From Phycisphaerae bacterium (lineage in GTDB: Bacteria > Planctomycetota > Phycisphaerae > Sedimentisphaerales > SM23-30): a stretch of 42,242 nucleotides of DNA. Location: positions 1-42,242 of the forward strand of contig JAEIOG010000039.1 in the NCBI GenBank assembly GCA_016342495.1, given 5' to 3'. Positions within the stretch are counted from its first letter, which is position 1. The number at the start of each line of letters is the position of its first letter. The notes under the pieces were generated by a model. It was given only the letters and a program-made list of their open reading frames with translations. It did no database searches and was not told the origin of the DNA. Shown here piece by piece: positions 15,849 through 41,483 of the stretch. The translations under genes were made by a program, and so were the position numbers.

Positions 15849-15882
15849 ACATGATATCCTTTACTACGGAGTAAATAAAAAG

Positions 15883-19935: not shown

Positions 19936-19953
19936 GCTCGAATTATTGTAATA

Positions 19954-20014
19954 GGTAGGATGGGCTATGCCCATGCTGATAAAATTACATCGCGATAGCG
20001 ATACCTAATTATTG
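19954..20014 (+). repeat. intergenic repeat, copy A
   Basis: This roughly 60-nt unit carries ATGGGC-tat-GCCCAT, then GCTGATAAAATTACAT, then ATCGC-gata-GCGAT: two small hairpins in a fixed order. Nearly the same sequence occurs at 40833-40920 and, diverged, at 39709-39782. This copy sits in the 110-nt gap between gspD and gspE and could act in the messenger as an RNA structure that modulates the D/E ratio. That role is inferred. Confidence 0.8.
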
Positions 20015-20045
20015 ATAGTAAAATCCAAACTGGATCAAAATAAAA

Positions 20046-21749: not shown

Positions 21750-21762
21750 TTGAGAAATTAAT

Positions 21763-22977: not shown

Positions 22978-23022
22978 AATGTAATTAAAACAATGAGGAA
23001 ATTTTTGATAGGAGAATTCAGA

Positions 23023-23466
23023 ATGGACAACATGAGAAAAAATAAATCCGGGCTCAAACGAAGCGGTTTCAGTCTGGTTGAATTGATGGTGGTAATTGTG
23101 ATCATCGGTATTTTAGGTGGCATTGTAGCTCCTAGAATTCTACAAAACATCGAAAAAGCTAACAGAACTGCCGCCAAACAACAGATTGATATTTTTGCCA
23201 AAGAGATTCAAAAATACAGAATAGACACCAAACAATATCCTGAAGCTTTAATTGATCTGGTCGAAGATCCCGGGCTTAAAGGCTGGCAGGAAGGTGGCTA
23301 CATGGACAATGTTCCTCTTGACCCATGGGATGGTGAATATCAATACTGGACTAATGAAGGTGATAAAAGCATCCCATTTGAAATTCTATGTTTAGGACCT
23401 AATGGTAATGATGATGGCGGTGTTGAAGATGACATCGCTTATCCATTCATAGACAACGAAGAATAA
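23023..23466 (+). CDS. gspG: major pseudopilin GspG
   Basis: This 147-residue prepilin has a type III signal: cleavage is expected at KRSG^FSLVELMVVIVIIGIL, with Glu at +5. The head domain contains A-K-E-I-Q-K-Y-R-I-D-T-K-Q-Y-P, G-G-Y-M-D-N-V-P-L-D-P-W-D-G-E-Y-Q-Y and C-L-G-P-N-G-N-D-D-G-G. These are hallmarks of GspG, in which the last loop binds calcium. The ATG at 23023 is preferred to an upstream in-frame ATG at 22993, because AGGAG lies 8 nt before it. It forms the pseudopilus shaft. Confidence 0.95.
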   Translation: MDNMRKNKSGLKRSGFSLVELMVVIVIIGILGGIVAPRILQNIEKANRTAAKQQIDIFAKEIQKYRIDTKQYPEALIDLVEDPGLKGWQEGGYMDNVPLDPWDGEYQYWTNEGDKSIPFEILCLGPNGNDDGGVEDDIAYPFIDNEE

Positions 23467-23478
23467 GCACAAACGCTA

Positions 23479-24105
23479 ATGAAATGCCAATACCTTAATA
23501 ATTCAGCTAAAGGGATGACCTTGCTAGAGCTATCGGTGATTATGACAATAATTGCCCTGACTTTGGCTATCGTTCCATTTAAGTCAGCTGAAAATATTCG
23601 CAAAACTGATGTCAGTCAGGATGTCCAGCAATTCGCTGACACCATGCGTGATATTGCTGAACATGCGGTATTGACTGGCAAGTCTTTTGAGCTGGTATTG
23701 GATATTACCGATTGCGTTTATAATGTATATGAAGCAGGACCTGAAAATCAGCAGGATGAACAAAAAAAAACGGATATCAGCGAGTTAACCGATGATGAAT
23801 TGCTGGAATTTGAAGATGATGATCTGCTATTAGATGAAGATGAAAAAGAAAGTATTTTTGAAGACCTTACTATGCTGATAAGTTTCATTGAAGAAATAGA
23901 ATTCTCCGATGGCTCGCGTCAATATTCCGGTGAGCTGATTATGCGAGCAACGCCAGGTGGCTGGGATAAATCAGTATTGTTTCAAACAATGGATGATGAA
24001 AATGAATATATGAACTTTATTCGGCTGGATGAAGGAACACCCAGGGTAACGGTATCGGAATTTGATCTGGAAATACAAGAATCCAAAAAGAATGTCGGCA
24101 TATGA
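23479..24105 (+). CDS. gspH: minor pseudopilin GspH-like, with acidic insertion
   Basis: This 208-residue prepilin is processed at AKG^MTLLELSVIMTIIALTLA with Glu at +5. The helix continues into Q-Q-F-A-D-T-M-R-D-I-A-E-H-A-V-L-T-G-K-S-F-E-L-V-L-D-I, which matches GspH. Between about residues 92 and 135 there is an unusually acidic stretch (D-D-E-L-L-E-F-E-D-D-D-L-L-L-D-E-D-E-K-E) absent from typical GspH. It overlaps gspI by four bases (ATGA). The ribosome-binding site is weak. Assignment is by sequence plus operon position. Confidence 0.85.
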   Translation: MKCQYLNNSAKGMTLLELSVIMTIIALTLAIVPFKSAENIRKTDVSQDVQQFADTMRDIAEHAVLTGKSFELVLDITDCVYNVYEAGPENQQDEQKKTDISELTDDELLEFEDDDLLLDEDEKESIFEDLTMLISFIEEIEFSDGSRQYSGELIMRATPGGWDKSVLFQTMDDENEYMNFIRLDEGTPRVTVSEFDLEIQESKKNVGI

Positions 24106-24872
24106 GAATCAGGATTTCTACATATAGTCATCGCAGTTGGGGCATCGCCCTTTTGGAAGCATTAGCCAGCGGCATAATCCTCGCTATTATGCTGACCTTG
24201 ACGCTGAAGGCATATCATAGCAGGCTTGACCGAATTGGCGATATGAAAATACGAGAATATGCCGGGGTAGTAGCTGAAAGGCAAATGGAAATACTGCTGG
24301 CATCACAGCAGGAACCTGACGACACCGGAACTTATCAGGAAGATAATGTCGATCCGGATTTCATCTGGAAGGTTGACCTGGAAAGAATAGTTGTAGATGA
24401 TGACAGGACCAGTGAAATCGAAGCTGATTATATGAATACGCTTATCAAGGCAACGATTACGGTAAAATTAAACAGTCAGTCAGATATGGGTATCGATCCG
24501 GTAGAACGTATCCGATACATGTCTTTTTTAAGAGGTGTTGACGGCAACCCGGTAGGTGTGCCGCTACCGAAAGATGATGTAAATTATAATAAAAATACGC
24601 AGGATAAGGATGAAGAGCCACTGGAACCTGAAGAAAAAGATCCAACTGGCGACTTAGCGGATTTAGATAAAGAAATCGCTGCAACAGAACAGCGAATAGC
24701 AGAGCTTGAATCACTGCTCAATGATATCAATACTCTTTTGTCTCAGTCAATGAATGACGACCTGAAAAAGATAGTCCAAGGCATGCATACAAATACCAAA
24801 ATTGATTTGGATGCCGCAATGAAAAAGCTTGCTTCGTTAAAGCAACAACGCCAAATATTATTAAGTCAATAA
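24102..24872 (+). CDS. gspI: minor pseudopilin GspI-like, with C-terminal coiled coil
   Basis: This 256-residue prepilin has the cleavage site WG^IALLEALASGIILAIML, with Glu at +5 and the E-A-L/M-x-x-G feature of GspI. Typical GspI is about 120-130 residues. Here the head domain (to about residue 150) is followed by an acidic linker (K-D-E-E-P-L-E-P-E-E-K-D) and a coiled coil (about 190-256, A-A-T-E-Q-R-I-A-E-L-E-S-L-L...L-A-S-L-K-Q-Q-R-Q-I-L). This extension could mediate contacts at the pseudopilus tip. It is coupled to gspH by the ATGA overlap, and gspJ begins 1 nt after its stop. Confidence 0.83.
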   Translation: MRIRISTYSHRSWGIALLEALASGIILAIMLTLTLKAYHSRLDRIGDMKIREYAGVVAERQMEILLASQQEPDDTGTYQEDNVDPDFIWKVDLERIVVDDDRTSEIEADYMNTLIKATITVKLNSQSDMGIDPVERIRYMSFLRGVDGNPVGVPLPKDDVNYNKNTQDKDEEPLEPEEKDPTGDLADLDKEIAATEQRIAELESLLNDINTLLSQSMNDDLKKIVQGMHTNTKIDLDAAMKKLASLKQQRQILLSQ

Positions 24873-24873
24873 A

Positions 24874-25563
24874 ATGAACAACAAAGGTTATTCAATGCTG
24901 GAACTGCTGGTTGCCATGGTAATCGGCACATTAATGATAGCTCTGACGCTGGAGATATTAGAACAGACCCGTCAGACGGCTCAGGCGATAGCTGTCGAGA
25001 TGGAATCCAGTAATGACCTGCAATATTGCCTGGATAGATTAAGCGATGATGTAGTGCAGGCAGCTTTCAGTAATGCCCAGTTTAAAGTAGACCAGAGATC
25101 CAAAGGCGATCAGATACTTTCGCATTTGCGGATAATGACCGGTCAGGGCAAAGTTCAAGGTAAAGAGGTAAAAGGAAACCATATTGACTGGATTACCGAA
25201 GCTAATGACGATGAAACACTGACACTGTATCGAAGAGAATTTAATAATGCCACCAGGGAAGATGCGGTATTTGTGCCTTTATGTAATAATTTATTTTCTT
25301 TTGATGTCGAACTGTTAAACAGCGCAGGACTGGAAGATCCTAATCAAGCCCCGGCAATGTTACAGGTCAGGGCCAGCCATTATGCCAATATTGAAGAACG
25401 TCCTGAATCGATACGCGAAACCTCTAAAACATTTTGTTTGAGACGCGATATTATTATGACATTAGGAGCACAAAAGGCCACACCGCCAACAAGTAATGAC
25501 ACCAACAATTCAAATATTACCCCAAAATCGACGTATAGTCCGGGTATTAAGTCAAAAAAATGA
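24874..25563 (+). CDS. gspJ: minor pseudopilin GspJ-like
   Basis: This 229-residue prepilin is cut at NKG^YSMLELLVAMVIGTLMI, with Glu at +5. It is followed by L-E-I-L-E-Q-T-R-Q-T-A-Q and D-L-Q-Y-C-L-D-R-L-S-D-D-V, as in GspJ, whose first head helix has an R-L-x-x-D-L pattern. Further strands (L-T-L-Y-R-R-E-F and L-F-S-F-D-V-E-L-L-N) fit the GspJ beta sheet. The C terminus is Ser/Thr/Asn-rich. It overlaps gspK by ATGA. It is expected to form the tip complex with GspI and GspK. Confidence 0.87.
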   Translation: MNNKGYSMLELLVAMVIGTLMIALTLEILEQTRQTAQAIAVEMESSNDLQYCLDRLSDDVVQAAFSNAQFKVDQRSKGDQILSHLRIMTGQGKVQGKEVKGNHIDWITEANDDETLTLYRREFNNATREDAVFVPLCNNLFSFDVELLNSAGLEDPNQAPAMLQVRASHYANIEERPESIRETSKTFCLRRDIIMTLGAQKATPPTSNDTNNSNITPKSTYSPGIKSKK

Positions 25564-26720
25564 AAAGATATATGAAACAAAAAGGATTTACACTATTAGT
25601 GAGTATGATTGTGCTTACATTACTATGCACAATCATAAGTCGCTTTTTGTATAAAACCTCATTATATCTCAGTTCATCCCAGCATCGTCAAAATAAAGTG
25701 CAATGTCGCTATGCCGCAGAATCAGGGATTGTCTTGGCATCCCGGTTGATTCGTAATATGTTGCAAGAACAGCAGGATGCATTTGTAAAAAACATTCACG
25801 ATAAAAATAAATCAGTAGCTATCAATGACATTGATTATGATGACCCCAACAATTTCAGCCCTGATGCACAATCAGCCAAAACATATAATCCTTTTAATCT
25901 CGATGCATTTGTTATCAGTAAAAAAACTAAAACAATAGGCAAAGCAAAAGTCGAAATTGAAATCATCGACGAAAATGCCAAGCTGCCTTTGTTGTGGATA
26001 GTCCAAAGCCCATTCGAAAAGAAAAATGGTTTCGACAGTCTAAAAGCACTCAATAGCGTCCTTGATACCGATTACAAAACCCGAGAAGCATTAGTTGAAT
26101 TAATCAAACAAAGCACAAAAGGCATCAAGCTGCCCCAGAATAAGTTTATCATTGCCAAATCCAGTACGCGCAGGCTTAGTGGGTTGCGTAACAGTCGCAG
26201 CAGCAATACCCCTTCTCCAATTATCTGGAAAAATATCGCGGGTAAAGCACCCAGAGATTTAAATGAACTCAGGCGTGATTATATTGTTCAGGTTAGTCAG
26301 GGCTGGGTAGATGAGCTTAAAAATAATACTAAATATAAAAGCCTCAAAGAAAAACTCGCAGGTTCTGATAACCCAATGACCGATTATATCAGCACCTGGA
26401 ACAATACCAAGCTGAATTTAAATACCGCTCCGGCAGAAGTGATATACGCCGCCTTTGAGCCAATCGGCATGACAATGGAGATGGCTAATGAAGTGGTTAA
26501 ATTCCGCAATGAAACCCCCCTGTCGTCGCCAAACTTACTTGATATTATCCCCGGCTTAAGTGAAATAAGTAAAGCGGTGGGAATGTGTTATACAAATAAA
26601 AGTGATACCTTTACAATAAGAGTTACAGCCAGATTGGGTCAGGCCCAATACAAACTCTATAGCTGCACTATTCATACCAGCGGCAAAATAGAGAATCTGG
26701 CAGTATTTACAGGAGATTAA
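25560..26720 (+). CDS. gspK: minor pseudopilin GspK, tip protein
   Basis: This 386-residue protein has the N terminus QKG^FTLLVSMIVLTLL. Residue +5 is Val rather than Glu, the known peculiarity of GspK. The Y-A-A-E-S-G-I-V-L-A-S segment and T-K-L-N-L-N-T-A-P-A-E-V-I-Y-A-A-F with I-I-P-G-L-S are typical of the GspK SAM-like domain, and the length fits the family (about 320-390). It would cap the pseudopilus with GspI and GspJ. It overlaps gspJ by four bases, and gspL starts 3 nt after its stop. Confidence 0.92.
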   Translation: MKRYMKQKGFTLLVSMIVLTLLCTIISRFLYKTSLYLSSSQHRQNKVQCRYAAESGIVLASRLIRNMLQEQQDAFVKNIHDKNKSVAINDIDYDDPNNFSPDAQSAKTYNPFNLDAFVISKKTKTIGKAKVEIEIIDENAKLPLLWIVQSPFEKKNGFDSLKALNSVLDTDYKTREALVELIKQSTKGIKLPQNKFIIAKSSTRRLSGLRNSRSSNTPSPIIWKNIAGKAPRDLNELRRDYIVQVSQGWVDELKNNTKYKSLKEKLAGSDNPMTDYISTWNNTKLNLNTAPAEVIYAAFEPIGMTMEMANEVVKFRNETPLSSPNLLDIIPGLSEISKAVGMCYTNKSDTFTIRVTARLGQAQYKLYSCTIHTSGKIENLAVFTGD

Positions 26721-26723
26721 GCT

Positions 26724-28118
26724 TTGTCCAGTAATAATTGTCTGGGAATATATTTTGGCAAAAACGCCATTACAGCAGTAGCAGTCAGCAAACATCACCA
26801 CAGTTTTGAATTGGGTGAAATACGCAATATTGATATTTCTGAAAATTTTCTGGTAGAACCGGATAATATCAGTGTACTGCAGTCATTAAAATCACTGCCG
26901 GGTAAGGCAAGCATGGTTTCGATGGCCCTGGATGGTATTTATTATAAAAGCCATCCGCATCATACTGAATTTCTGGAAAACAAACAGATTGACCAGGTTT
27001 TAAGATATGACATAGAAGATTCTTTTGCCGTTGACGCCGAAGAAATCGCCCTGTGTTATCAAAAAGAAAACACCAGTGAATCCGGCTGTGATATAATAGT
27101 TCATGTTACTAATCGTCATAAACTCAATAATATTATTGAAGTTTTTGAAAATGCTGGCATTGACCCGTTGACCATTGAACCTGACATCAATGCTTGGCTG
27201 CATTATATAAATAATTGTCCTGATGGCAATGACAATAAATCAATGGTTTTGCTTGGCTGCACGGATAATAATTTATTTATCGTGGTAACAGATAGCAATG
27301 GCAAGGTTAAATTAAGTCGAAATATCCCCGCAGGTCAAAAAATAACAAAAGCTATTTTAAGTCGTGAATTGAAAAGAACGTTTTCGATTCTTCCCGAAGG
27401 TGTCAAACCCACCAGAATATTATGGCATAATGCAGGTTTAGCTCAAGCCGAAATTGCTGAAATTGCTCAGGAATTGAATATGGACCAGGCCCAGGCAAAT
27501 CATGAAAGTATGGCCGTAGCAATTGCTGCCGGGGCTGCTATGGGTTTGATGGGTGGCCAACAGCAGGCTGATTTTCGTGCTGACAATCTCAAGCCCAAAG
27601 CCGTAATAAAAGCACGTAATTTCGCTTTATACAGTTTGTCTGTTGCAGTATGCCTGCTTTTATGTGTAATTCTTCTGATTAACTTCCAAAAGATTAAAGT
27701 CCACAAAGAAACCAGCGATTCCGCCAACGAGGTTATCGCAAAAGTGCAAAAACTAGTTTTTGCCGATAGCAAGACCAGTGGCTCAGCTGCTTTAAAACGC
27801 AAACTCGACAAAGAACTTAAAGCCCTGATGGATAAGACTTCAGGCGAAATAAATGTCAGTGATTCAGAATCAGCTAATGGTAATTTGCTGGCATTGCTGA
27901 ACGCATTAAATAAGCTGGATGAAAACTTCAACTTTATCATTGAAGAAATTGATATTAATGAAGAACAAATCCGAACTTTCCGAGGGTCGGTTTTAACATT
28001 AGCTGATTATGAACTATTGAGTAATCAACTGAAAGAGTCAGGCCTGGAATCTATCAGGGCTAATGTTGACAATGCCGGTATCAGAATTGATTTTACTTTT
28101 CAGCTCCAACAAAAATAG
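26724..28118 (+). CDS. gspL: GspL-like (PilM/GspL) assembly protein
   Basis: This 464-residue protein starts at TTG, 8 nt after AGGAG. The N-terminal 290 residues have an actin-like fold as in GspL/PilM (LGIYFGKNAITAVAV, I-E-P-D-I-N-A-W-L-H-Y, M-V-L-L-G-C-T-D-N-N-L-F-I-V-V). One membrane helix lies near residues 301-322, and a periplasmic domain follows (to 464) with a ferredoxin-like pattern. GspL anchors the ATPase GspE to the membrane. The 260-285 segment (M-A-V-A-I-A-A-G-A-A-M-G-L-M) resembles the end of PilM. Operon position after gspK supports GspL. Confidence 0.85.
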   Translation: MSSNNCLGIYFGKNAITAVAVSKHHHSFELGEIRNIDISENFLVEPDNISVLQSLKSLPGKASMVSMALDGIYYKSHPHHTEFLENKQIDQVLRYDIEDSFAVDAEEIALCYQKENTSESGCDIIVHVTNRHKLNNIIEVFENAGIDPLTIEPDINAWLHYINNCPDGNDNKSMVLLGCTDNNLFIVVTDSNGKVKLSRNIPAGQKITKAILSRELKRTFSILPEGVKPTRILWHNAGLAQAEIAEIAQELNMDQAQANHESMAVAIAAGAAMGLMGGQQQADFRADNLKPKAVIKARNFALYSLSVAVCLLLCVILLINFQKIKVHKETSDSANEVIAKVQKLVFADSKTSGSAALKRKLDKELKALMDKTSGEINVSDSESANGNLLALLNALNKLDENFNFIIEEIDINEEQIRTFRGSVLTLADYELLSNQLKESGLESIRANVDNAGIRIDFTFQLQQK

Positions 28119-28151
28119 CATACAATGACAAAATAATAAACAGAGGCAATT

Positions 28152-28703
28152 ATGAATTTTGAATTAAATGAAGAAACTTTGAAACAACCTATGACCTGGG
28201 CGGTAATTATCCCGGTTTGCTTGATGCTGGCAACTATATATAGCTGTTTCAGCCTGAAAAAATACAGCGACACCGCTAAAAATAATGCCGACACGGTTCA
28301 GGAACTGTATGAGACCAAAGACCAGATATTATCATTACGCCAGGAATTAAATATTGGCAATCGAATCTCCGATATTAAAGAATTCGATTTGGCCGAATTC
28401 CTTATCAGCAATGCCAAAGAATCCGACATCCCCTTGACCAATATCAGCGCCGGGCGAATCTCAAACAAAATTGATAAAAGAAATAATTCAACGATAAGCA
28501 AACAGAACTTCTCCATACGCAAAGTTGATATGTTCCGACTGGGAAAATATATTACTAAAGCCAAAATTGCCTATGCCGACCTGGACTGCACCCAGATTCA
28601 TATCAGCCGTTCTATGAAGCTTACTACCACTCGTGAAGCTAAAACTGGTGGCGACGCCTGGGATGTAGACCTTAGCTTTGTCTATGTTACCCCAGAAAAA
28701 TGA
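28152..28703 (+). CDS. gspM: GspM/PilO-like assembly protein
   Basis: This 183-residue protein has one membrane helix near residues 16-36 (AVIIPVCLMLATIYSCFSL), a heptad-like helix (N-N-A-D-T-V-Q-E-L-Y-E-T-K-D-Q-I-L-S-L), and a periplasmic ferredoxin-like domain (F-D-L-A-E-F-L-I-S-N-A-K-E-S-D-I-P-L-T-N-I-S). This is the architecture of GspM, the partner of GspL. Sequence similarity in this family is always weak, so position carries much of the evidence. AGAGGC precedes the ATG. The stop is followed after one base by the convergent hemW stop, with no terminator between. Confidence 0.72.
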   Translation: MNFELNEETLKQPMTWAVIIPVCLMLATIYSCFSLKKYSDTAKNNADTVQELYETKDQILSLRQELNIGNRISDIKEFDLAEFLISNAKESDIPLTNISAGRISNKIDKRNNSTISKQNFSIRKVDMFRLGKYITKAKIAYADLDCTQIHISRSMKLTTTREAKTGGDAWDVDLSFVYVTPEK

Positions 28704-31804: not shown

Positions 31805-33475
31805 TCAGTCGAGTTTATGCTGATAAACTCTGTGCATTGCCAGGCTGGAAGAATCTTCTTTGACAGCTTCCAGTTCATCCAGCAAAGCTTGTAAATCACA
31901 ACTAAGAAATACCTCTGCCAGTTCCGGGTCAAACTGGGTTCCACTGAAACGTCTGATGTCAGCTTTGATTACCGACAAAGGCATGGCCTTGCGATATACG
32001 CGGTCTGATGTCATTGCATCAAATGAGTCGGCAATCATAACAATTCTGCCAACCAATGGAATATCTTTGCCGGATAATCCTTGCGGATAGCCCTTGCCAT
32101 CATATCGTTCGTGATGAAATGATGCAGCCTGGCTGACATGTTCCATTTGTTTGATGCCACTTAGTATTTTAGTTCCAATTTCAGGATGCTTTTTAATTTC
32201 GAGAAATTCTTCATCATTCAGTTTCCCCGGTTTAAGCAAGACAGCTTCGCTGACGCCGATTTTGCCAACATCATGCAGCAAGCCCCCCAGATAAATATTA
32301 CTAATGGTATCATCATCTAAATTTATTTTTTTCGCTAAATGTCTGGCAATTATAGCGACACGTTCTGAATGACCACAGGTATAGCGATCCTTGGCATCAA
32401 TACTGGAAGTCAAAGCCTTTAAGGTTCCTATCATCAAATCCTGCATGTCAGCATAAAGCCTGACATTTTCCAGGAAAACGGCAATTTCGCTGCCAACCGA
32501 AACCAGAAGCTTACTATCTATAGAATTGAAATCATCACGTTCGATTTTATTGACAGCAACCAATGCCCCTAAAACCCGCCCATCACGACAAATAGGGACA
32601 CTGACAATATTACGAATAGGATCAGGCCAGGTGAAATCATTGGTGCTGCTCAGTTCACTATCCATAAAAGCTACCTGAACTAAATCATCACTGGAGTCAA
32701 CGGTAGAAAGAGCCTCGGTCTGTGACCAGATTGCTTCTAAGTGTTGAAGTTGAAGTTCAATCTGGCCAGTATAGGTAACCATAGGCATATATTGCTGTTG
32801 TTGCTGATTTTCAGATTGCCACCAGAAAATAATCAAAGCCTCTGCATTTAATACCTCACGTATTTCTCTGCCCAGTTCAGGAAAAAAATCCTGCGGTTTT
32901 TGAGTCAATCGCATTTTTTCTGTTATATTATGCAAAAGTGATAATTCTTCATAGGATTGAGCCAATGAATAACTGAGTTGTTCGACAGCTTGCTGCTGTT
33001 CAATAGCATAATATTTTTGCTGGATAATTTTATCAGTAAGCACCGCCAGCAAAGGTAAAGTTTTTGCTGCTGAGATTGACTGATTAGCAACGATATTCGA
33101 TATATATTGACTATCAATTTGCAATTTATCGCAAATTCTGTGCAATTCTTCGCTAGGCTGATATTTCAAAGGATCAATATCAAAAACCAGACAGGCAACA
33201 ACATTATTACGATTATAAACTGGTACAACAATACAATGGTCATCGGCAAGCTGTAAGCGGAAAATAAAGCCCTGTTCAGCTAAATCGAAATGGAACTCGG
33301 TGATTTCTTTGATATAATCAGGCCACCGGAAATCATTGGTACTAAATTCACTCAAACAATGCCCCTGGACACTATACAAAGCTGAAGCCAACTGCATAGA
33401 TCCGAAAAGCTCCTGTAGCTCAAAACAACCAGAAAGGTCGAGTCTGTCTTTAATTGTGGCAGAACTATTAGCCAT
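31805..33475 (-). CDS. GAF / HD-GYP cyclic-di-GMP phosphodiesterase
   Basis: This is a 556-residue cytoplasmic protein. The N-terminal 190 residues resemble a PocR-like ligand sensor (F-E-L-Q-E-L-F-G-S-M-Q-L-A...), including a V-A-C-L-V-F-D-I-D-P segment. A GAF domain follows (about 195-345). The HD-GYP domain lies at about 350-530, with G-H-S-E-R-V-A-I-I-A, G-G-L-L-H-D-V-G-K-I-G (His401, Asp402), H-P-E-I-G and H-H-E-R-Y-D-G-K-G-Y-P. All metal ligands and the GYP motif are intact, so hydrolysis of cyclic di-GMP (or a related dinucleotide) is expected. It is last in an operon with a response regulator and a kinase, which links cyclic-di-GMP to this secretin/pilin locus. Confidence 0.9.
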   Translation of the reverse strand: MANSSATIKDRLDLSGCFELQELFGSMQLASALYSVQGHCLSEFSTNDFRWPDYIKEITEFHFDLAEQGFIFRLQLADDHCIVVPVYNRNNVVACLVFDIDPLKYQPSEELHRICDKLQIDSQYISNIVANQSISAAKTLPLLAVLTDKIIQQKYYAIEQQQAVEQLSYSLAQSYEELSLLHNITEKMRLTQKPQDFFPELGREIREVLNAEALIIFWWQSENQQQQQYMPMVTYTGQIELQLQHLEAIWSQTEALSTVDSSDDLVQVAFMDSELSSTNDFTWPDPIRNIVSVPICRDGRVLGALVAVNKIERDDFNSIDSKLLVSVGSEIAVFLENVRLYADMQDLMIGTLKALTSSIDAKDRYTCGHSERVAIIARHLAKKINLDDDTISNIYLGGLLHDVGKIGVSEAVLLKPGKLNDEEFLEIKKHPEIGTKILSGIKQMEHVSQAASFHHERYDGKGYPQGLSGKDIPLVGRIVMIADSFDAMTSDRVYRKAMPLSVIKADIRRFSGTQFDPELAEVFLSCDLQALLDELEAVKEDSSSLAMHRVYQHKLD

Positions 33476-33504: not shown

Positions 33505-33897
33505 TTATCCAATTGCTGTAACTGGGCTTAAAATATCGTTAACTATCATCAATAAATGCCTTGGCCCAAACGGTTTATTAATACACAAATTGATGCCGGC
33601 AGCGTGCATTTCATCTTCATTTAAGGCAAAGCCACGAGCAGTCAACAGTATTGCTGGAATATTTTTGGTTGAGTCGATCTGTTTAAGCCGACTACATAAT
33701 TCCAGCCCCGACAAATATGGCATCTGATAATCAGTTATTATCATATCTGGCAGTTGGCTTTGTGCAATTTCAAAAGCATCTTTGCCATCTCTTGCGGTCA
33801 AAACTTCATATCCAGCATTTTTTAATTTTAAAGAAATCACATGCAGTATATGAATCTCATCATCTACAACCAAAACCTTTTTGCCAGTATTTGTCAT
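33505..33897 (-). CDS. single-domain response regulator
   Basis: This 130-residue CheY-like receiver has no output domain. It shows the acidic pair Asp12/Asp13, phosphoacceptor Asp56 in I-I-T-D-Y-Q-M-P, Thr86 in A-I-L-L-T-A and Lys108 in I-N-K-P-F. Its ATG begins 1 nt after the TGA of the sensor kinase, so the two are translationally coupled, and the HD-GYP gene follows after 29 nt. It probably relays the kinase signal by protein contact, with the HD-GYP protein or the secretion machinery as the obvious partner. The partner is inferred. Confidence 0.93.
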   Translation of the reverse strand: MTNTGKKVLVVDDEIHILHVISLKLKNAGYEVLTARDGKDAFEIAQSQLPDMIITDYQMPYLSGLELCSRLKQIDSTKNIPAILLTARGFALNEDEMHAAGINLCINKPFGPRHLLMIVNDILSPVTAIG

Positions 33898-33898
33898 T

Positions 33899-35356
33899 TC
33901 ACATATCCTCCGTTAGTTTAACTTGCTGTGTGGCCATAGGAATCGCAATACAAAATGTACATCCCTGATTTTCCTGACTTGCAACAGTGAGTCTGCCTCC
34001 ATGAACATTTTCCACAATTTGACGAGCCAGACTTAAGCCCAGACCGGTCCCTCCGGCCAAATCCTTGTGCGCCGGAACCCGGTAGAATCTGTCAAAAACC
34101 TGGCTTATGCAGGCTTGCGGGATACCGGGACCATCATCCTGAACTTCTATTAAGAGTTCGTTTTCCTTTTGCCTGACATCGAGATTGATATTTCCATTTT
34201 CATGGCAATACTTCACTGCATTGCTGACAAGATTAAGAATAGCCTGAATCAGCATTTCCCTGTCGGCTTCAAACTCACAAATAGCAGGAGAAATCGCACT
34301 TTGCAATGATATGTTTTTTTGACATACCTGAGGCATTACGATAGTCTTTATATCGGCTATTAATTCACCTATGTTTATAGTTTCATAATTGATTTTGTAA
34401 GCCTGGGACTCAATAGATGAAAAATTGAGTATTTCATCTATTAACAACTCCAGTTTTTTAGTTTGACTCTCTATTACCTGACAGAACTTGCCATGGTTAT
34501 CGGCCTCGCCATCATAAAGCATTTCGACATAAGCCCTGATGCTGGATAATGGTGTTTTAAGCTCATGTGATACGCCACTGACAAATTCATCCTGCATTCT
34601 GGCAAGTTCTTTTTCCTTGGTAAGGTCATGAATTACCACGACAACTCCCATCGGTTTTTTCGCCAGATCTTTGACGCTGCCAATTTTAATTTCAAGAATT
34701 AATTCCTGATCAGTTATAGGATGTTTTCTATGAATTTGCCGGATGACATCATTTCTGCCTGAACTTCGAACATATTTTATTAATTCGAGTAAATCCGGTT
34801 CATTAGCCAACACCTCATTTATCATTCTTCTGAAATTGAATTCCATGTTAAACTCAAAAAGCCCCTGAGCTACCGGGTTAGCCATCACCAGTTCATCATT
34901 TTCATCAATGACCAATACCGCTTCAGGAATACTATTTATTGCCGCTTCTATATGGCAGCGTTCAATTTCAGTAACATCAGCCTGAATTTTAAGCTCTTTA
35001 TTTTGAGTAACCAGATTCTTATGACAGAAACCAATATCAGTCAGATAATTATTAAATGCGGCAACCAGTTCAGATAATTCATCATCGGTATCAACCATTA
35101 TCATTCCAATTCGGCCTTCGCGGGCAAATTGCAACAACTGATTTTCTATATGGGATGTTGGGATACTGAACCGTATCGCTCGATCCCGCCAATACATAAC
35201 GCTAAGGATCATCGCAACAATAAGTAATGACCAGCTGAGCATACTGCTGTTATTAACCGACAAAGGCCAATCCGCAATAGTCCCAATGATCGTCAGCAAT
35301 ACGCATAGCCCAGCTATGAGAATCGGAGTATTAATTGTCCTTTTTATAATTATCAA
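33899..35356 (-). CDS. membrane sensor histidine kinase with PAS domain
   Basis: This 485-residue kinase starts at TTG with GGAGG 5 nt upstream. Two membrane helices (about 10-30 and 38-56) enclose only a few periplasmic residues. A HAMP-like segment (about 62-100), a short coiled coil and a PAS domain (about 125-235) follow: I-N-S-I-P-E-A-V-L-V-I-D-E-N-D. The HisKA phosphoacceptor is His264 (S-G-V-S-H-E-L-K-T-P-L). The HATPase domain shows the N box L-N-L-V-S-N-A-V-K-Y, G1 D-D-G-P-G-I-P and G2 G-G-T-G-L-G-L-S-L. With so little periplasmic sequence, it probably senses an internal or membrane signal. It is coupled to the response regulator. Confidence 0.93.
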   Translation of the reverse strand: MIIIKRTINTPILIAGLCVLLTIIGTIADWPLSVNNSSMLSWSLLIVAMILSVMYWRDRAIRFSIPTSHIENQLLQFAREGRIGMIMVDTDDELSELVAAFNNYLTDIGFCHKNLVTQNKELKIQADVTEIERCHIEAAINSIPEAVLVIDENDELVMANPVAQGLFEFNMEFNFRRMINEVLANEPDLLELIKYVRSSGRNDVIRQIHRKHPITDQELILEIKIGSVKDLAKKPMGVVVVIHDLTKEKELARMQDEFVSGVSHELKTPLSSIRAYVEMLYDGEADNHGKFCQVIESQTKKLELLIDEILNFSSIESQAYKINYETINIGELIADIKTIVMPQVCQKNISLQSAISPAICEFEADREMLIQAILNLVSNAVKYCHENGNINLDVRQKENELLIEVQDDGPGIPQACISQVFDRFYRVPAHKDLAGGTGLGLSLARQIVENVHGGRLTVASQENQGCTFCIAIPMATQQVKLTEDM

Positions 35357-35396: not shown

Positions 35397-36599
35397 TCAA
35401 TATGATTTTATTTTACTCTGGCAAGCAGTCATCAATTCCTGGGCCAATGCCGTATCAGGATCGATTTGCAAAGCTCTGGCATAACAGTTCAAAGCTTCGG
35501 GAATTTTTTGCTGATGCTCATAAGAGCTGCCTAGTAAACAATATGCAAAGACATTTTTTTCATCGATACTCAAGACATGCTTTAAAGATTGTTCCGCCTG
35601 GATATATTGCGAATTTTTCATAGCGACATGAGCGACAATAATAATTGCGTCAACATAGTCCTTATCTAAGGCGATAGCCTTGCGAGCATACATTTCGGCT
35701 TTATTATAACTTTTAACCGCCAGAGCTGTCCGGGCCAGCCTGGTCCAGATAGCCGCACTAGAGGTGTCCCTGGCACTTACATATTCAAAGCAACGGCGGG
35801 CTTCATGGAATCTGCCCTGTTGGAAATAGCAATCGCCCAAAGCTAATTTGACTGGAACTGGAATGGGATTTTGCTCCATAATAAAGCGATCCCTGATTCT
35901 TTCCAGAACCCCAATTCCCTGATCATATTGACCATCATTGACAAGTGCCATCGCCAGAGATTCCTGAATAGTGATATTGTCGGGGCCATTGACCAGTGCT
36001 TTACGATACATAATCGCCGCGTCACGGTTTTTGCCTATATCGCGTAGAATATTGCCAGCAGCTACATAAAGAGCCTGCTCATTTATTCCATTTTGAAGCT
36101 GGGCGGTTATTAAATCAAAAGCCTTTGAATGTTCATTGTCTGTAACTAATAATTCAACCGCTGCCAGACAATATGAGATATTATCAGGAGCGATTTTCAG
36201 AGCTGATTGATAGGATTCCAATGCCAGTTTACGCTGAGCAATAGATTCAAAGGTTATGCCCAGCCAATAATAACTAATGGCATTATCGGGGTTGATTGAT
36301 ATGGCTTTTTCAAAACATTGTATCGCATCACTATTATTATTCTGAGCAAAACAAATTTGTCCCATGAGATGATATGCCGCAGCAGAATTCGGGGCCTGCT
36401 GCAATATCCGATCAACAGCAGCTAAAGCTTTTTCATACTGTTTAGCTTCATATTGGTTTTCGGCCAAACTAAGAGCCAGATTGACACGGGTCTGATTCCA
36501 TTGTCGCTGGACAGGATTGCTGCCCTTTTTGTGACAGCCACTACTCGCCAGGGGCAATATTAACAATAATAACAATAAAGTTTTGGATACAGATTTCAT
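35397..36599 (-). CDS. TPR lipoprotein
   Basis: This 400-residue protein has a lipoprotein signal peptide (MKSVSKTLLLLLLILPLASSGC, lipidation at Cys22). About nine tetratricopeptide repeats follow, visible as A-x-x-x-L-G/M-x-x-x-x-x-x-x-x-x-A-x-x-x-F/Y-x-x-A-L-x-I-x-P units spaced 34 residues apart. It lies 35 nt downstream of the secretin gene and 40 nt upstream of the kinase. TPR lipoproteins (PilF/PilW type) act as secretin pilotins in type IV pilus systems, so a role in localising the neighbouring secretin is plausible but inferred. Confidence 0.87.
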   Translation of the reverse strand: MKSVSKTLLLLLLILPLASSGCHKKGSNPVQRQWNQTRVNLALSLAENQYEAKQYEKALAAVDRILQQAPNSAAAYHLMGQICFAQNNNSDAIQCFEKAISINPDNAISYYWLGITFESIAQRKLALESYQSALKIAPDNISYCLAAVELLVTDNEHSKAFDLITAQLQNGINEQALYVAAGNILRDIGKNRDAAIMYRKALVNGPDNITIQESLAMALVNDGQYDQGIGVLERIRDRFIMEQNPIPVPVKLALGDCYFQQGRFHEARRCFEYVSARDTSSAAIWTRLARTALAVKSYNKAEMYARKAIALDKDYVDAIIIVAHVAMKNSQYIQAEQSLKHVLSIDEKNVFAYCLLGSSYEHQQKIPEALNCYARALQIDPDTALAQELMTACQSKIKSY

Positions 36600-36634: not shown

Positions 36635-38887
36635 TTAGAATTGCTTATTAGAACTACTGGCAACATCAACAGTGCCAAAATATGAATCGATAAACCAATG
36701 TGCAGATTCGCCAGTTAATTCAGTGAAAAATACACTGCCTTCTTCTGCCGCTGCATTAGCCGGTATCTTTGGCAAATATGGACCAAAAATCCCATTTTCA
36801 TTTATATTACCATCAATATCAGTTTTATTTGTCAAACGACTTGCAATAATGTTTGAATCTTTTTCAGTTGATCCGTCGCTATTCTGCCAGGGATATAAAT
36901 TATTATGTTGAATTTTATATAGTTCGCATTGTGAACGCAAAGTCTGCAAGCCTGATTGCGTTGCTGCATTCATCATATCAGCAGGCTCAACAACCACCTC
37001 AAGGGCATCTTGAAAATCAGTTCGAGCAACATCCTGCTCTAAAGCTAACCCAGGTGATAATGCCTGCTTTTGTTCCTCATGGAGCATATCCCGCTGGATC
37101 ATATCCTGCATAAAGTTTTTCATATTGCCAACACTGCCATCATAAATTTCCCGACAACGAAGCTCGTCACGCAACATCTGGGCATCACCAAACAGAGGAC
37201 TGATATTACATGCCATATCTGCATGCCAGAGTGCACGTTTTTTATTGCCGACATTCATTAATTCATTGGCACGCTGGAAATGATAATTAGCAATTTTTTC
37301 ACGCGACACGACACTGATATTTTCACGGGCACCCAGCATCAAACGATTAGATTTATGCAATGCATCCTGACCCATATCGTTGGCCACATCATTATTAATA
37401 ATATGGGGTGTAATCATGAAGATAACTTCTTCTTTTTTGTTTTCATCTTTTTTGCTGCGGAACAGATTACCCACAACAGGCAGGCCGCCTAATACTGGTA
37501 TCTGGCTTCTGGTTTCGGCATTTCTTTCTCGGAACAAACCACCGATAACAATGGTATTACCATCTTTAACCAAAACATTAGCTTTAACTTCTGTCAAAGT
37601 TTTTTCAGGAAGATTTTCGCCATTACCTTTGGCTACAACTTTACCTGTACTGTCTTCAGGATGTAGTTCCAGACGAATATAGCCATCACTCATCACAAAT
37701 GGTCTAAATCGCAGTATGGTACCGGTTTCCAGCATTTCAACAGTTGAAACCGAAGCTGTTCCGGTAGCTTCGGTGCTACCTAGATAACCCTGTTCGCCAC
37801 CAACTCTGACCAGACCATATTGTTTATTGAGGGTAAGAACTTTAGGATTGCCTAAGGTTACGACATCAGTAATGTTTTCCAGAGCTTTGATAAACAGGCC
37901 AATATTATTTTTAACCACGCCGATTTTCAAACCACCACTGCCAATATCAGCACTGATATCAGTACCGGACAAGCCAGAAATACTGCCACCTGCAACATCG
38001 CCAAAAACGCCGGCGACATCACCAAAATCAACACCACCCATAACATTAAAATCGACACCCAGCTCATTTACATCATCTAAAGATGCAACTAAAATAGTTG
38101 CTTCGATCATAACCTGCAGGGGCCTGATATCAATATCATTAAGTACATTTTCAACTTTATCCAGCACTTCCGGATAATCGACTAAAAGCAGATGATTACT
38201 GCCAGCCCAATCGTCATTACTGTCTTCATTAGTGCTTGACTTTGGTGTCTGAGACACTTCTGCATCACTGCTTAATAATGGTTTAATCACATCATAAGCG
38301 TCAGAAGCTGAAATATAATTCAGTTGAAACACCCGGGATTCTGTCTTACGATTAGCTAATTCAATCTTAGCAATCTCCTCTAAGGTATAAACACATATAA
38401 AAGATTCTTCTTCTATATAGGCAAAACTGTTAGTTTTCAAAACAACATCTAATGCTTCACGTGGCGTCACATCTGTCAAACTGACAGTCACATCACCTCT
38501 AACCCCGCGTGATGGTATAATATTTTTGCCAAGATCGACACTGACCATTTTTAGAAAGTCGGTTATATCGCTTTTATGTAAATATGACCTGGTACCACTT
38601 TCGATACTGACTAAGACACTTTTGCTTTCTACCTGTTTTACCGCTTCAGGAGCTTTAACTACCTCAACCGCTTGTTCAACAGCCTCAACAGCAGTTTCAA
38701 CCTTTTCTTTTGGCTCAGCTTCCACAGGTTCGCCAGCGACACCTTCGGCCAGATCAGATATTGGCTCTTCTTCCAGCTTGGGAGCCATTTCTCTTTTGAT
38801 AAGCTCGTCAGAGACTTCCTGTTGTGCAAAAACCAAACCCGAGAAAGCCAAAAGTACAATTGTCAATAAAACATAATTACGATTCAT
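36635..38887 (-). CDS. secretin with C-terminal prepilin-head domain (fusion)
   Basis: This 750-residue exported protein has signal peptide MNRNYVLLTIVLLAFSGLVFA. A Glu/Val-rich linker is followed by an STN/N0-like domain (about 90-170) and one N1-like domain (about 185-270, F-Q-L-N-Y-I-S-A-S-D-A-Y). The secretin barrel (about 275-515) shows P-L-Q-V-M-I-E-A-T-I-L-V-A-S, N-P-K-V-L-T-L-N, G-N-T-I-V-I-G-G-L-F, I-P-V-L-G-G-L-P-V-V-G-N-L-F-R and E-V-I-F-M-I-T-P-H-I-I. A TPR-like pair follows (about 545-580). Residues 645-750 match the head of the prepilin at 41055-41483 (SGLQTLRSQCELYK identical, then Q-H, Y-P-W, K-T-D, F-G-P-Y), without the pilin hydrophobic helix. AGGAG lies 8 nt before ATG. The TPR lipoprotein gene follows after 35 nt. 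Confidence 0.88.
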   Translation of the reverse strand: MNRNYVLLTIVLLAFSGLVFAQQEVSDELIKREMAPKLEEEPISDLAEGVAGEPVEAEPKEKVETAVEAVEQAVEVVKAPEAVKQVESKSVLVSIESGTRSYLHKSDITDFLKMVSVDLGKNIIPSRGVRGDVTVSLTDVTPREALDVVLKTNSFAYIEEESFICVYTLEEIAKIELANRKTESRVFQLNYISASDAYDVIKPLLSSDAEVSQTPKSSTNEDSNDDWAGSNHLLLVDYPEVLDKVENVLNDIDIRPLQVMIEATILVASLDDVNELGVDFNVMGGVDFGDVAGVFGDVAGGSISGLSGTDISADIGSGGLKIGVVKNNIGLFIKALENITDVVTLGNPKVLTLNKQYGLVRVGGEQGYLGSTEATGTASVSTVEMLETGTILRFRPFVMSDGYIRLELHPEDSTGKVVAKGNGENLPEKTLTEVKANVLVKDGNTIVIGGLFRERNAETRSQIPVLGGLPVVGNLFRSKKDENKKEEVIFMITPHIINNDVANDMGQDALHKSNRLMLGARENISVVSREKIANYHFQRANELMNVGNKKRALWHADMACNISPLFGDAQMLRDELRCREIYDGSVGNMKNFMQDMIQRDMLHEEQKQALSPGLALEQDVARTDFQDALEVVVEPADMMNAATQSGLQTLRSQCELYKIQHNNLYPWQNSDGSTEKDSNIIASRLTNKTDIDGNINENGIFGPYLPKIPANAAAEEGSVFFTELTGESAHWFIDSYFGTVDVASSSNKQF

Positions 38888-39114: not shown

Positions 39115-39624
39115 TTATTCAATTGTTATTTTTCCTGTAACAGGCTGCACAGTTATTTTTCTGGATAATTCTTTGCCTGTAAGTTCAACTGAGCCATCTG
39201 CCAGATCGACACCAACATCACTGTAAGGTCGGGCCATTCCGTCATATAGCAAGTAATCTCCCGCATCAAAATCGATATTTTCCATAGCTATCCCGGCATA
39301 GCTGGGTTCCCCAAAACTCATCTGATAATCTTGTTTAGTTATAGGATGCTTGATAGTCCCATAACTAAGGTCGTTATTCTGAATTTGAATTGTAACCGTC
39401 TGGTCATCTGAACTGAATACTACCCGGTGGATCTTACCTGTTGCGATACTTTGAGTCTGGGCATAAGTCAAAGCATTATTAAGATCTATCGCTGCGCTGT
39501 TAAGTATAAATTCTTCGGTATCTGCCATCGCCGGGACAATAATAGCTGCAGCAATCGCAAGGATCACTACCACCATCAAAATCTCTGCCAGGGTAAAACC
39601 GGATTGTCTATACTTTTGCAACAT
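39115..39624 (-). CDS. GspH-like pseudopilin
   Basis: This 169-residue prepilin has the cleavage site RQSG^FTLAEILMVVVILAIAAAII, with Glu at +5. The helix ends in D-L-N-N-A-L-T-Y-A-Q-T-Q-S-I-A-T-G-K-I-H-R-V-V-F, the typical GspH/FimT pattern, followed by beta strands. I use the ATG at 39624; a longer in-frame start at 39714 would add 30 residues encoded in intergenic repeat sequence and is unlikely. It is the last pilin gene before the secretin gene, from which it is separated by 227 nt. Confidence 0.87.
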   Translation of the reverse strand: MLQKYRQSGFTLAEILMVVVILAIAAAIIVPAMADTEEFILNSAAIDLNNALTYAQTQSIATGKIHRVVFSSDDQTVTIQIQNNDLSYGTIKHPITKQDYQMSFGEPSYAGIAMENIDFDAGDYLLYDGMARPYSDVGVDLADGSVELTGKELSRKITVQPVTGKITIE

Positions 39625-39650
39625 TTTCCATCTCTCACATAATCTTTTCA

Positions 39651-39675
39651 GTAGAGACAAGGAATGCCTTGTCTC
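39651..39675. repeat. palindrome related to 29934-29961
   Basis: GTAGAGACAAGG and CCTTGTCTC form a dyad around AATG, of the same GTAGAGAC...GTCTC class as the element at 29934. It lies directly before intergenic repeat copy B, upstream of the GspH-like gene. Confidence 0.6.
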
Positions 39676-39708
39676 CTCTGCTAGCCGAAGTAGCATGGCA
39701 ACCACTTT

Positions 39709-39782
39709 GCCCATGCTGATAAAATTACATCGCAGTAGCGATACCGATTATCGTATATTACTTCACTTGGCTAAAGTGTTAC
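39709..39782 (+). repeat. intergenic repeat, copy B
   Basis: GCCCATGCTGATAAAATTACATCGC matches copy A over the core, then A-G-T-A-G-C-G-A-T-A-C-C. The left hairpin arm is lost (CCACTTT in place of ATGGGCTAT). The right part, CTTCACTTGGCTAAAGTGTT, is shared with copy C but not with copy A. Confidence 0.7.
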
Positions 39783-39785
39783 GAA

Positions 39786-40073
39786 TTATTTACCTTTGTC
39801 TTTGTCTTTGCGTTTAACCTGCTCAGCGGTAACGATTTGCACTTTAACCCCGCCAGATGTCAAAGTCTGCTGAACTTTATCAACCGAGGCCTTAACCGCT
39901 TCTAATTGACTGATAACATCATTAAGTTGTTTCCCGCTATCAGGTATTGCCGCATTAGCCGTTGACAGTGTAGAAGGTGCATGACCCCACAAACCAACAC
40001 TGACAACCAATAATAAAACCGCTATAACGGTTAAAATAAATCTTGTATACTTATCAACTGTAACTACCATCAT
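39786..40073 (-). CDS. small single-pass membrane protein of the pilin cluster
   Basis: This 95-residue protein (94 if the second of two adjacent ATG codons at 40070 is used; AGGGG spacing favours it slightly) has one membrane helix near residues 11-29 (FILTVIAVLLLVVSVGLW). A short helical coiled-coil segment (L-N-D-V-I-S-Q-L-E-A-V-K-A-S-V-D-K-V-Q-Q-T-L) and a basic tail K-R-K-D-K-D-K-G-K follow. It is not recognised as a named family. It lies 55 nt after one prepilin gene and before the GspH-like gene, so a role in pilus assembly is possible. Confidence 0.7.
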   Translation of the reverse strand: MMVVTVDKYTRFILTVIAVLLLVVSVGLWGHAPSTLSTANAAIPDSGKQLNDVISQLEAVKASVDKVQQTLTSGGVKVQIVTAEQVKRKDKDKGK

Positions 40074-40128: not shown

Positions 40129-40626
40129 TCAATACTCATAATAACTTTCGCCACTTAAATCATTTCCGACAGAATTTGCACGAAAATCAATTTCAGCGGC
40201 TTTATAAATCCAACCTATTTCATTGCCACCGGTTGGCTCTGCGGGCATATCATCTGCATTTTGAATAACTTGAACAGCACTTGCTTTAGTTAAGGGATTT
40301 TCTGGTATAACACTTAAATAAGGGCCATAGCGAAACACATCGCTTTTGCTCTCATCGACATTACCATTTTGATCGGTAAATTTGGTAAGCTGATCAATAA
40401 AATTCTGCTCACTTAAGTTAGCTCCCTTATAACCAGGGGCCATTCCGTCATGCTGAGCCCGATAGATACTTATCTGAGTCCGCATAACCCGAAGATTTTC
40501 CATCATCATGGCTTCCTGAGATTCCATCGCGGCGCTGGAAAACTGTGGAATAACAATAGCTGCCAATATCCCTATGATTATCACAACTATTAATATTTCA
40601 ACTAGCGTAAAAGCATTGGCTTTCAT
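40129..40626 (-). CDS. type IV prepilin / GspG-like pseudopilin
   Basis: This 165-residue prepilin has the N terminus MKANA^FTLVEILIVVIIIGILAAIVIPQF, with Glu at +5. The residue before the cut is Ala rather than the usual Gly, an accepted but less common variant. The head shows L-R-V-M-R-T-Q-I-S-I-Y-R-A-Q-H-D, and Y-G-P-Y-L-S-V-I-P-E-N-P, the same family as the 41055 prepilin and the secretin tail. The start at 40626 is set by GAGGTG 6 nt upstream; the longer frame is not supported. A 23-bp inverted repeat lies 54 nt upstream. Confidence 0.88.
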   Translation of the reverse strand: MKANAFTLVEILIVVIIIGILAAIVIPQFSSAAMESQEAMMMENLRVMRTQISIYRAQHDGMAPGYKGANLSEQNFIDQLTKFTDQNGNVDESKSDVFRYGPYLSVIPENPLTKASAVQVIQNADDMPAEPTGGNEIGWIYKAAEIDFRANSVGNDLSGESYYEY

Positions 40627-40679
40627 ATAACACCTCAAATGAATTTTATCTAAGTAGGCTAACAACATCTACTTAACTG

Positions 40680-40753
40680 GTTTGAAAGTGCGAAAGTATG
40701 AACAAATGGAAGTTGAACGTAAAACTGCATTTCATACTTTCGCACTTTCAAAC
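40680..40753. repeat. 23-bp perfect inverted repeat
   Basis: The arms at 40680-40702 (starting GTTTGAAAGTGCGAAAGTAT) and 40731-40753 are exact reverse complements around a 28-nt centre. No T-run follows on either side. It lies immediately upstream of the 40129-40626 prepilin. It may be an RNA hairpin in the leader or the remnant of a small transposable element. Confidence 0.85.
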
Positions 40754-40760
40754 ATAAATA

Positions 40761-40831
40761 AACACCACTGACAATCCCTAGCTTGGGTATATACTTTATT
40801 GGACCCGGCACACCTAAAATCGCAAAACAGC
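40761..40831 (+). repeat. direct repeat, first copy
   Basis: About 71 nt, including GCTTGGGTATATACTTTATT followed by GGACCC and ending AAAATCGCAAAACAGC, are repeated at 40926-40998 with few differences. The two copies flank intergenic repeat copy C. Confidence 0.8.
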
Positions 40832-40832
40832 A

Positions 40833-40920
40833 AGTAGGATGGGCTATGCCCATGCTGATAAAAATCATATCGCGATAGCGATACCTATTATTCGTATTGC
40901 TTCACTTGGATAAAATGTTA
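40833..40920 (+). repeat. intergenic repeat, copy C
   Basis: GTAGGATGGGCTATGCCCAT and the ATCGC-gata-GCGAT hairpin match copy A. Downstream, TTCACTTGGATAAAATGTTA matches copy B. It is therefore the longest copy and joins the two partial ones. Confidence 0.8.
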
Positions 40921-40925
40921 CGATA

Positions 40926-40998
40926 AACACAACTGGCAATCCCCCAAGCTTGGGTATATACTTTATTGGACCCTGTGCACCAAAAATCGCAAAACAGC
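40926..40998 (+). repeat. direct repeat, second copy
   Basis: This is the second copy of the 40761-40831 sequence (GCTTGGGTATATACTTTATT and flanks). It ends at the terminator hairpin of the 41055-41483 prepilin. Confidence 0.8.
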
Positions 40999-41025
40999 CC
41001 GACAGTAAACATTTTACTGTCGGGC
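40997..41025 (-). terminator. rho-independent terminator of prepilin gene
   Basis: GCCCGACAGTAAA and TTTACTGTCGGGC form a perfect 13-bp stem with a 3-nt loop, 29 nt after the prepilin stop. On the minus strand TGTTTTGCGATTTTT follows, a T-rich though interrupted tract. It should separate this prepilin from the rest of the cluster. Confidence 0.7.
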
Positions 41026-41054
41026 CGGTTATCTATACCAATTCTGGCTTATAC

Positions 41055-41483
41055 TTATTCAGGTTTCTGGGCATCTGGAAGAATGGTACCCAAGGTTGTG
41101 ATAATCCAGTGATTTGTGCCATCAGCAGTATCTTCATCAACAAACAGAGCACCAGTTGCAAACGGATTTTCAGGTGTTGTTGGGAAATATGGACCAAAGT
41201 TACCAGCAGCAAGACCTGTAACATCAGTTTTGCTTTCCATAATACCAGCAATATCAGCAAAAGCGGCTGCCTGGTCCCATGGATAATTATCACTATGCTG
41301 AACCTTATATAGTTCACACTGACTTCTAAGGGTTTGCAAGCCACTGGTCAGGCTGGATTCTTTGGCATCCTGTGATGCATTGGAAAACTGCGGGATAATA
41401 ATCGCAGCTAAGATACCTAAAATAATCACAACGATCAAAATTTCGACAAGTGTAAAACCATTTGTATTTTTATTAATTCTCAT
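41055..41483 (-). CDS. type IV prepilin / GspG-like pseudopilin, parent-like of secretin tail
   Basis: This 142-residue prepilin is cut at NTNG^FTLVEILIVVIILGILAAIIIPQF, with Glu at +5. Head residues 47-142 begin S-G-L-Q-T-L-R-S-Q-C-E-L-Y-K-V-Q-H and continue with Y-P-W, E-S-K-T-D, F-G-P-Y-F-P-T-T-P-E-N-P and H-W-I. These match the last 105 residues of the secretin at 36635-38887. AAGGAAC lies upstream of the ATG. A stand-alone terminator follows, so it may be the highly expressed major pilin of this locus. Whether it forms a true pilus or a pseudopilus cannot be read. Confidence 0.9.
   Translation of the reverse strand: MRINKNTNGFTLVEILIVVIILGILAAIIIPQFSNASQDAKESSLTSGLQTLRSQCELYKVQHSDNYPWDQAAAFADIAGIMESKTDVTGLAAGNFGPYFPTTPENPFATGALFVDEDTADGTNHWIITTLGTILPDAQKPE

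Follow-up and report, generated by a model that had tools for sequence, protein, structure and literature searches.

A planctomycete PilQ/GspD-type secretin gene that encodes an in-frame pilin head at its C-terminal end

The window, by which we mean the whole stretch of 42,242 nucleotides that was analysed, comes from a contig that is part of a 5.4 Mb draft genome (221 contigs). The features around the secretin gene are given below in the direction of transcription, with the parts of the secretin listed directly after the gene as a whole.

41055-41483, minus strand: PilA-type prepilin, a few genes upstream of the secretin, sister of the secretin's tail head in the tree (N_methyl, E 3.5e-8; tree)
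40129-40668, minus strand: second prepilin, called PilB in this analysis, a more distant head paralogue (N_methyl; tree)
39786-40073, minus strand: small conserved membrane-anchored operon protein with one N-terminal hydrophobic stretch (orthologues in the same place in 10 of 10 family loci)
39115-39714, minus strand: GspH/ComGD-like minor prepilin (N_methyl, E 8.1e-7; NCBIfam)
36635-38887, minus strand: whole fused secretin gene, 750 aa plus stop (open reading frame without internal stop; PF00263, E 7.6e-39; PF03958, E 6.3e-8)
38354-38590, minus strand: N0-like domain, residues 100-178 (PF21305, E 1.2e-5, 25.5 bits, slightly under the cut-off of 27; folded in the AF2 model)
38129-38341, minus strand: N1/Secretin_N domain, residues 183-253 (PF03958; AF2)
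37397-38116, minus strand: secretin barrel domain, residues 258-497 (PF00263 at 335-497; the PilQ/GspD relatives in the PDB end at ~498-504)
37058-37387, minus strand: C-terminal helical region with a helix at 501-523, TPR-like helices at 526-581 and a helix at 589-610 (common to orthologues, 29 aligned tails; helices 531-580 with pLDDT mostly 81-92)
36956-37057, minus strand: linker, residues 611-644 (low-confidence at 612-648 in the full model; last residues, from ~635, helical in the tail model)
36638-36955, minus strand: globular head of a pilin (GspG-type), residues 645-750, lacking the N-terminal helix of pilins (homology, predicted fold, conserved columns)
35397-36599, minus strand: TPR lipoprotein, PilW/PilF-type and pilotin-like, directly downstream of the secretin (TIGR02521, E 3.7e-26, under the cut-off)
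33899-35356, minus strand: histidine kinase of the conserved operon (synteny)
33505-33897, minus strand: response regulator (synteny)
31805-33475, minus strand: HD-GYP-type protein (synteny; HD-GYP call from reading the sequence)

We are nearly certain of the anatomy in this list, in which the predicted outer-membrane pore protein of a pilus-like machine bears an in-frame pilin head at its C-terminus. A sequence-only reading of this DNA had given exact coordinates for the secretin and prepilin reading frames and had left their strand unstated; both lie on the minus strand, and the plus strand at these positions contains many stops. The secretin domain (PF00263) scored 133.4 bits against a cut-off of 27.5, which places the protein in the secretin superfamily, and the Secretin_N domain before the barrel (PF03958) scored 33.2 bits against a cut-off of 28.2. 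The scores with the PilQ model (TIGR02515, 180.5 bits) and the GspD model (TIGR02517, 217.2 bits) were strong yet under the curated cut-offs of 284.35 and 351.35, respectively, and the protein is therefore a PilQ/GspD-type secretin rather than a proven member of either subfamily. The match with solved relatives (PilQ 9sh1 and 6ve2, GspD 6hcg) ends at about residue 500, the N-terminus of the protein reads as an export signal, and its named relatives come from Sedimentisphaerales and other Phycisphaerae (Planctomycetota). It is the genome's only secretin of its family, and the genome has no tail-less copy. The window also contains a second, type II-like cluster (15841-28703) with its own long secretin (1364 aa), an ATPase, a platform protein and several prepilins.

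Behind the barrel comes a helical region (501-610 here) that each of the 29 orthologues read shares. The TPR-like pair ahead of the head had been proposed to act as a hinge. The pair exists, but its helices (pLDDT 81-92 here) occur in all orthologues, so that it is a feature of the family and not part of the fusion; a hinge fits the disordered linker instead, and it is this low-confidence stretch, at ~612-640, that is peculiar to the fusion. Most orthologous secretins end shortly past the helical region, while several bear varied, low-complexity-looking tails, which indicates that the C-terminal end of this secretin is evolutionarily free and tolerates additions. Three such tails (L013:724-3276, L151:3752-6328 and L094:3626-6145) are acidic or Thr/Ser/Pro-rich and extend up to ~290 residues past the helical region. 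The tails of the orthologues were considered as parallel fusions and rejected, given their low-complexity look and the lack of a pilin head in them.

The tail of the secretin studied here (residues 645-750) aligns with residues 47-142 of the PilA prepilin encoded at 41483-41055. As the sequence-only reading had pointed out, SGLQTLRSQCELYK is identical in secretin residues 645-658 and prepilin residues 47-60, and it is followed in both proteins by Q-H, Y-P-W, K-T-D, F-G-P-Y and H-W in the same order. The local alignment of the tail with PilA had a score of 184, compared with a mean of 28.7 (sd 4.7, maximum 58) for 2000 shuffles (z = 33); the genome search gave 49% identity over 96 residues (E 1.8e-16), and the protein identity overall was 45-49%. 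A profile of 37 prepilins that was built without the tail matched secretin residues 641-744 at E 1.6e-31. The tail keeps all eight columns that are invariant across these other 37 prepilins (Q, H, P, T, G, Y, N and W), and the pilin NPF motif is lost from it (NAA instead). The nucleotide similarity between the tail and the PilA gene that had been described is real but patchy (best block 34/45; 58% over 198 bp). The pilin N-terminal helix is indeed absent, with neither a helix nor a class III signal in any frame of the linker, and a Pfam search of the fused secretin gave no match to N_methyl. Among the traits of type IV pilins and pseudopilins the tail thus has the head and the conserved core, and it lacks the cleavage/methylation motif and the hydrophobic alpha1-N.

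The AF2 model of the tail was computed from a prepilin alignment; a mixed secretin and pilin alignment misplaced the pilins and was left out of folding. The model showed one long and one short helix together with a three-stranded sheet (pLDDT 88.8, pTM 0.81), so that the tail is predicted to fold as a pilin head with an alpha1-C helix packed on an antiparallel sheet, in agreement with the original proposal. The best solved matches to this model were the heads of the major pseudopilins PulG, EpsG and GspG, with Z values of 3.8-6.8 (PulG 6.8, EpsG 6.5), and the first unrelated structure had a Z of 2.5. Values below 8 are modest alone, and it is the sequence match that carries the assignment as a pilin head. 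Foldseek alone gave no match to the tail with E < 0.001, its top rows nonetheless all being GspG/pseudopilin entries, and a sequence search of the PDB with the head profile returned chance matches only. In the full-length model of the secretin there was no confidence in the tail; the low confidence at residues 612-648 suggests that the head is probably carried on a flexible linker.

A maximum-likelihood tree built from 45 heads joined the tail with its own PilA (support 96/81) in a clade inside the PilA clade of the family, and this sister relationship points to a lineage-specific duplication of the PilA head as the source. The end branches were 1.16 for the tail and 0.71 for PilA. The two differ at 64% of synonymous (dS 1.42) and 43% of nonsynonymous sites (dN 0.64), and their identity at codon positions 1, 2 and 3 is 57, 64 and 47%, respectively. 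Since third positions are the least alike, the tail is not a recent copy of the neighbouring PilA gene. Of the recent in-frame gene fusion that had been suggested, the fusion is borne out by the sequence, the tree and the predicted fold, but its recent date is not supported by the synonymous differences and the end branches; the sequences indicate that the duplication is lineage-specific and not young. A pilin copy on contig C186 was considered as the donor and rejected, as it is a distant orphan prepilin. This gene (L045:6016-6540) belongs to the same head family, and there are no secretion genes among its immediate neighbours.

The operon of the family has the order PilA, PilB, small protein, GspH-like prepilin, secretin, TPR lipoprotein, histidine kinase, response regulator and HD-GYP protein, with PilM/PilN-like genes (judged by reading) between the GspH-like prepilin and the secretin in some family loci. 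Where the contig of a relative extends far enough, the TPR lipoprotein gene directly follows that of the secretin. The small protein at 39786-40073 had no NCBIfam family match and is perhaps a new part of the filament machine. In the window the family gene order is retained on either side of the tail, and immediately behind the tail the genes are again syntenic. An assembly join, a frame error, or a separate pilin gene with a missed start could in principle mimic a fusion, and the draft state of the assembly, with its 221 contigs, and the internal ATG codons at residues 638-639 would fit such an origin. With the synteny of the relatives on both flanks, a false insert would need two joins, which makes a join or frame error unlikely, and the DNA of the tail differs from that of the genome's only close pilin gene. 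As to a separate gene, the linker has no pilin N-terminus in any frame, the other two frames contain stops, and a product started internally would be without an export signal. We therefore consider an artefact or a misannotated separate gene most improbable.

A search of the linker for the lost pilin N-terminus found none, and no second pilin copy turned up in the gap that separates the two prepilin genes (40669-41054). A 56-nt direct repeat lies in this gap, its two copies 91% alike and 167 nt apart; no further copies were found in the genome. The gap also contains a perfect 23-nt inverted repeat (arms at 40680-40702 and 40731-40753) and, at 40992-41030, a hairpin that resembles a terminator. 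The repeats and the hairpin had no Rfam family match. Two relatives (L041:6597-7187 and L043:1336-1881) have an extra PilA-like prepilin between PilA and PilB, at the place of the repeat-bearing gap in the window.

The search for other secretins with such a tail, which the sequence-only reading had recommended, detected the fusion in this gene only within the sets searched. Among 121 secretin ORFs in the collected loci, some of which are the same gene fetched twice, the pilin-head profile matched only this gene, which appears twice (L001 and L005). With residues 485-750 as a composite query, a single gene covered both halves in the 161 order genomes. It was the window's own gene, and it was again the only one in 397 genomes of the class (among the best matches listed) and 392 genomes of the phylum; these genome sets overlap and the counts are not additive. 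In the class search, where only the best matches were listed, any fused gene would be expected to head the list, just as that of the window does. When the tail alone was used as the query against the 161 order genomes, the matches listed were otherwise only ORFs of prepilin size. Congeneric species did not appear in the genome searches. A report of a secretin-pilin fusion was not found in the open-access literature searched, which is not proof of absence.

When set against PilA, the tail has retained 19 of the 23 columns conserved in the family but only 20 of the 68 variable ones (Fisher p 9.6e-6). The nonsynonymous distance (pN) of the tail to the PilA genes of six relatives was 0.42-0.48, and that of PilA itself to the same genes was 0.42-0.46. 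In neutral simulations that drifted to 45% protein identity, the frame was stop-free in only 7%; the tail has no stop. These results suggest that the tail has probably been kept by selection. As the fusion is known from one genome only, selection that acted after the fusion is inseparable from selection that had already acted on the donor copy while it was still a free-standing gene. The main rival reading is that of a neutral passenger, a pilin head added by chance at a free C-terminal end and tolerated without a task. It agrees with the diverse low-complexity C-terminal tails, up to ~290 residues, on orthologues of the family and class, with the occurrence in a single genome, with the disappearance of the NPF motif and with a tail branch longer than that of PilA. 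It is harder to reconcile with a frame that stayed open despite the divergence, which few of the neutral simulations reproduced, and with the strong preference for conserved core columns (p 1e-5) at a rate equal to that of PilA, although part of this constraint may predate the fusion. We regard a passenger as a credible reading that falls somewhat short of an even chance.

In solved secretins the C-terminal S-domain is the region bound by periplasmic pilotins (PMC6532946, PMC10499894), and the tail should therefore hang in the periplasm, outside the barrel. The head had been suggested to lie inside the channel as a docking site or template for the pilus, or as a plug. The chambers of Neisseria PilQ can be filled by pili, according to earlier work cited in PMC3441751, so that pilin heads and secretin interiors can touch; but here the head follows the S-domain and the helical region on a linker and would be expected outside the barrel by analogy with the solved pilotin-binding regions. 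Placement inside the channel thus finds no support and appears very unlikely to us. The same neighbourhood raises the question of a pilotin-side or envelope anchor, in which the head would have been taken up for its small, stable fold rather than for contacts with pilins. The head adjoins the S-domain, the gene of the PilW-like TPR lipoprotein lies alongside, and in RcpA/TadD the last residues of the secretin bind the groove of the TPR pilotin, with C13/C14 symmetry (PMC10499894). Nevertheless, the head is missing from orthologues that are accompanied by the same TPR lipoprotein, and the conservation of pilin-specific columns exceeds the needs of a mere spacer, which makes an anchor of this kind unlikely.

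The reading we favour is a tethered docking module. The PilQ/GspD-type secretin of a planctomycete type IV filament system has gained a C-terminal pilin head through duplication of the head of its own PilA. By analogy with solved secretins, and given the export signal at the N-terminus and a C-terminus expected outside the barrel, each pore would display 12-15 heads around the waist on its periplasmic side, close to the TPR pilotin. Because the hydrophobic helix is missing, such heads cannot enter the membrane, be cleaved or polymerise. Since the pilin core is retained, as would suit a head that has kept its pilin-type contacts, a docking module is preferred; it could bind the partners of a normal pilin head, namely PilA, minor prepilins or the assembly platform, and would hold subunits or parts of the machine close to the pore. 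Taken as a whole, a folded and selected pilin-head module on a flexible linker that probably serves as a docking site has in our view about an even chance of being right, and the docking of pilin partners, considered by itself, is a tentative proposal that is at best evenly balanced. The loss of NPF, the longer branch of the tail, the addition-tolerant C-terminus, the single genome, the pilin alignment used as input for the tail model and the missing confidence for the tail in the full-length model count against this explanation. In the most specific and rather doubtful form of this reading, the 12-15 tethered heads would make up a ring on the periplasmic side of the pore and, as a built-in docking collar, capture or order pilin or minor pilin subunits. 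If this were true, the pore would be an active participant in filament assembly.

Secretins may contact pilin subunits in the periplasm or merely let the filament pass, and the transience of such contacts makes it difficult to test which is the case. A pilin head that is naturally and covalently joined to the pore, and constrained in the genome's only secretin of its family, points to a useful contact and offers a ready test construct. With the PilQ/GspD secretins (PF00263; TIGR02515, TIGR02517; PDB 9sh1, 6ve2, 6hcg) the fused gene shares the N0-N1-secretin layout and an operon with prepilins and a TPR lipoprotein; it differs from them in a C-terminal helical region of ~110 residues followed by a pilin head that was seen in no other secretin checked. 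The tail resembles the major pseudopilins GspG/PulG/EpsG and the PilA-type prepilins in its globular head fold and the eight invariant columns, whereas it is without the class III signal and the hydrophobic helix, has lost NPF and is appended to another protein. Natural GspA-GspB fusions, which are mentioned in PMC9239104, likewise combine two parts of one envelope machine in one polypeptide, but the partners are different and no pilin is involved. Modular pilins, which are widespread, graft extra modules onto polymerisable pilins, as in PilB of Streptococcus sanguinis (PMC8179133), and are alike in joining domains with a pilin module. They are recognised by an N-terminal class III signal and an extra C-terminal module; in the protein described here the order of the parts is reversed and the signal is absent. 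The fusion is the reverse of a modular pilin, with a pilin head that lacks the polymerising helix placed on another part of the machine, the pore protein.
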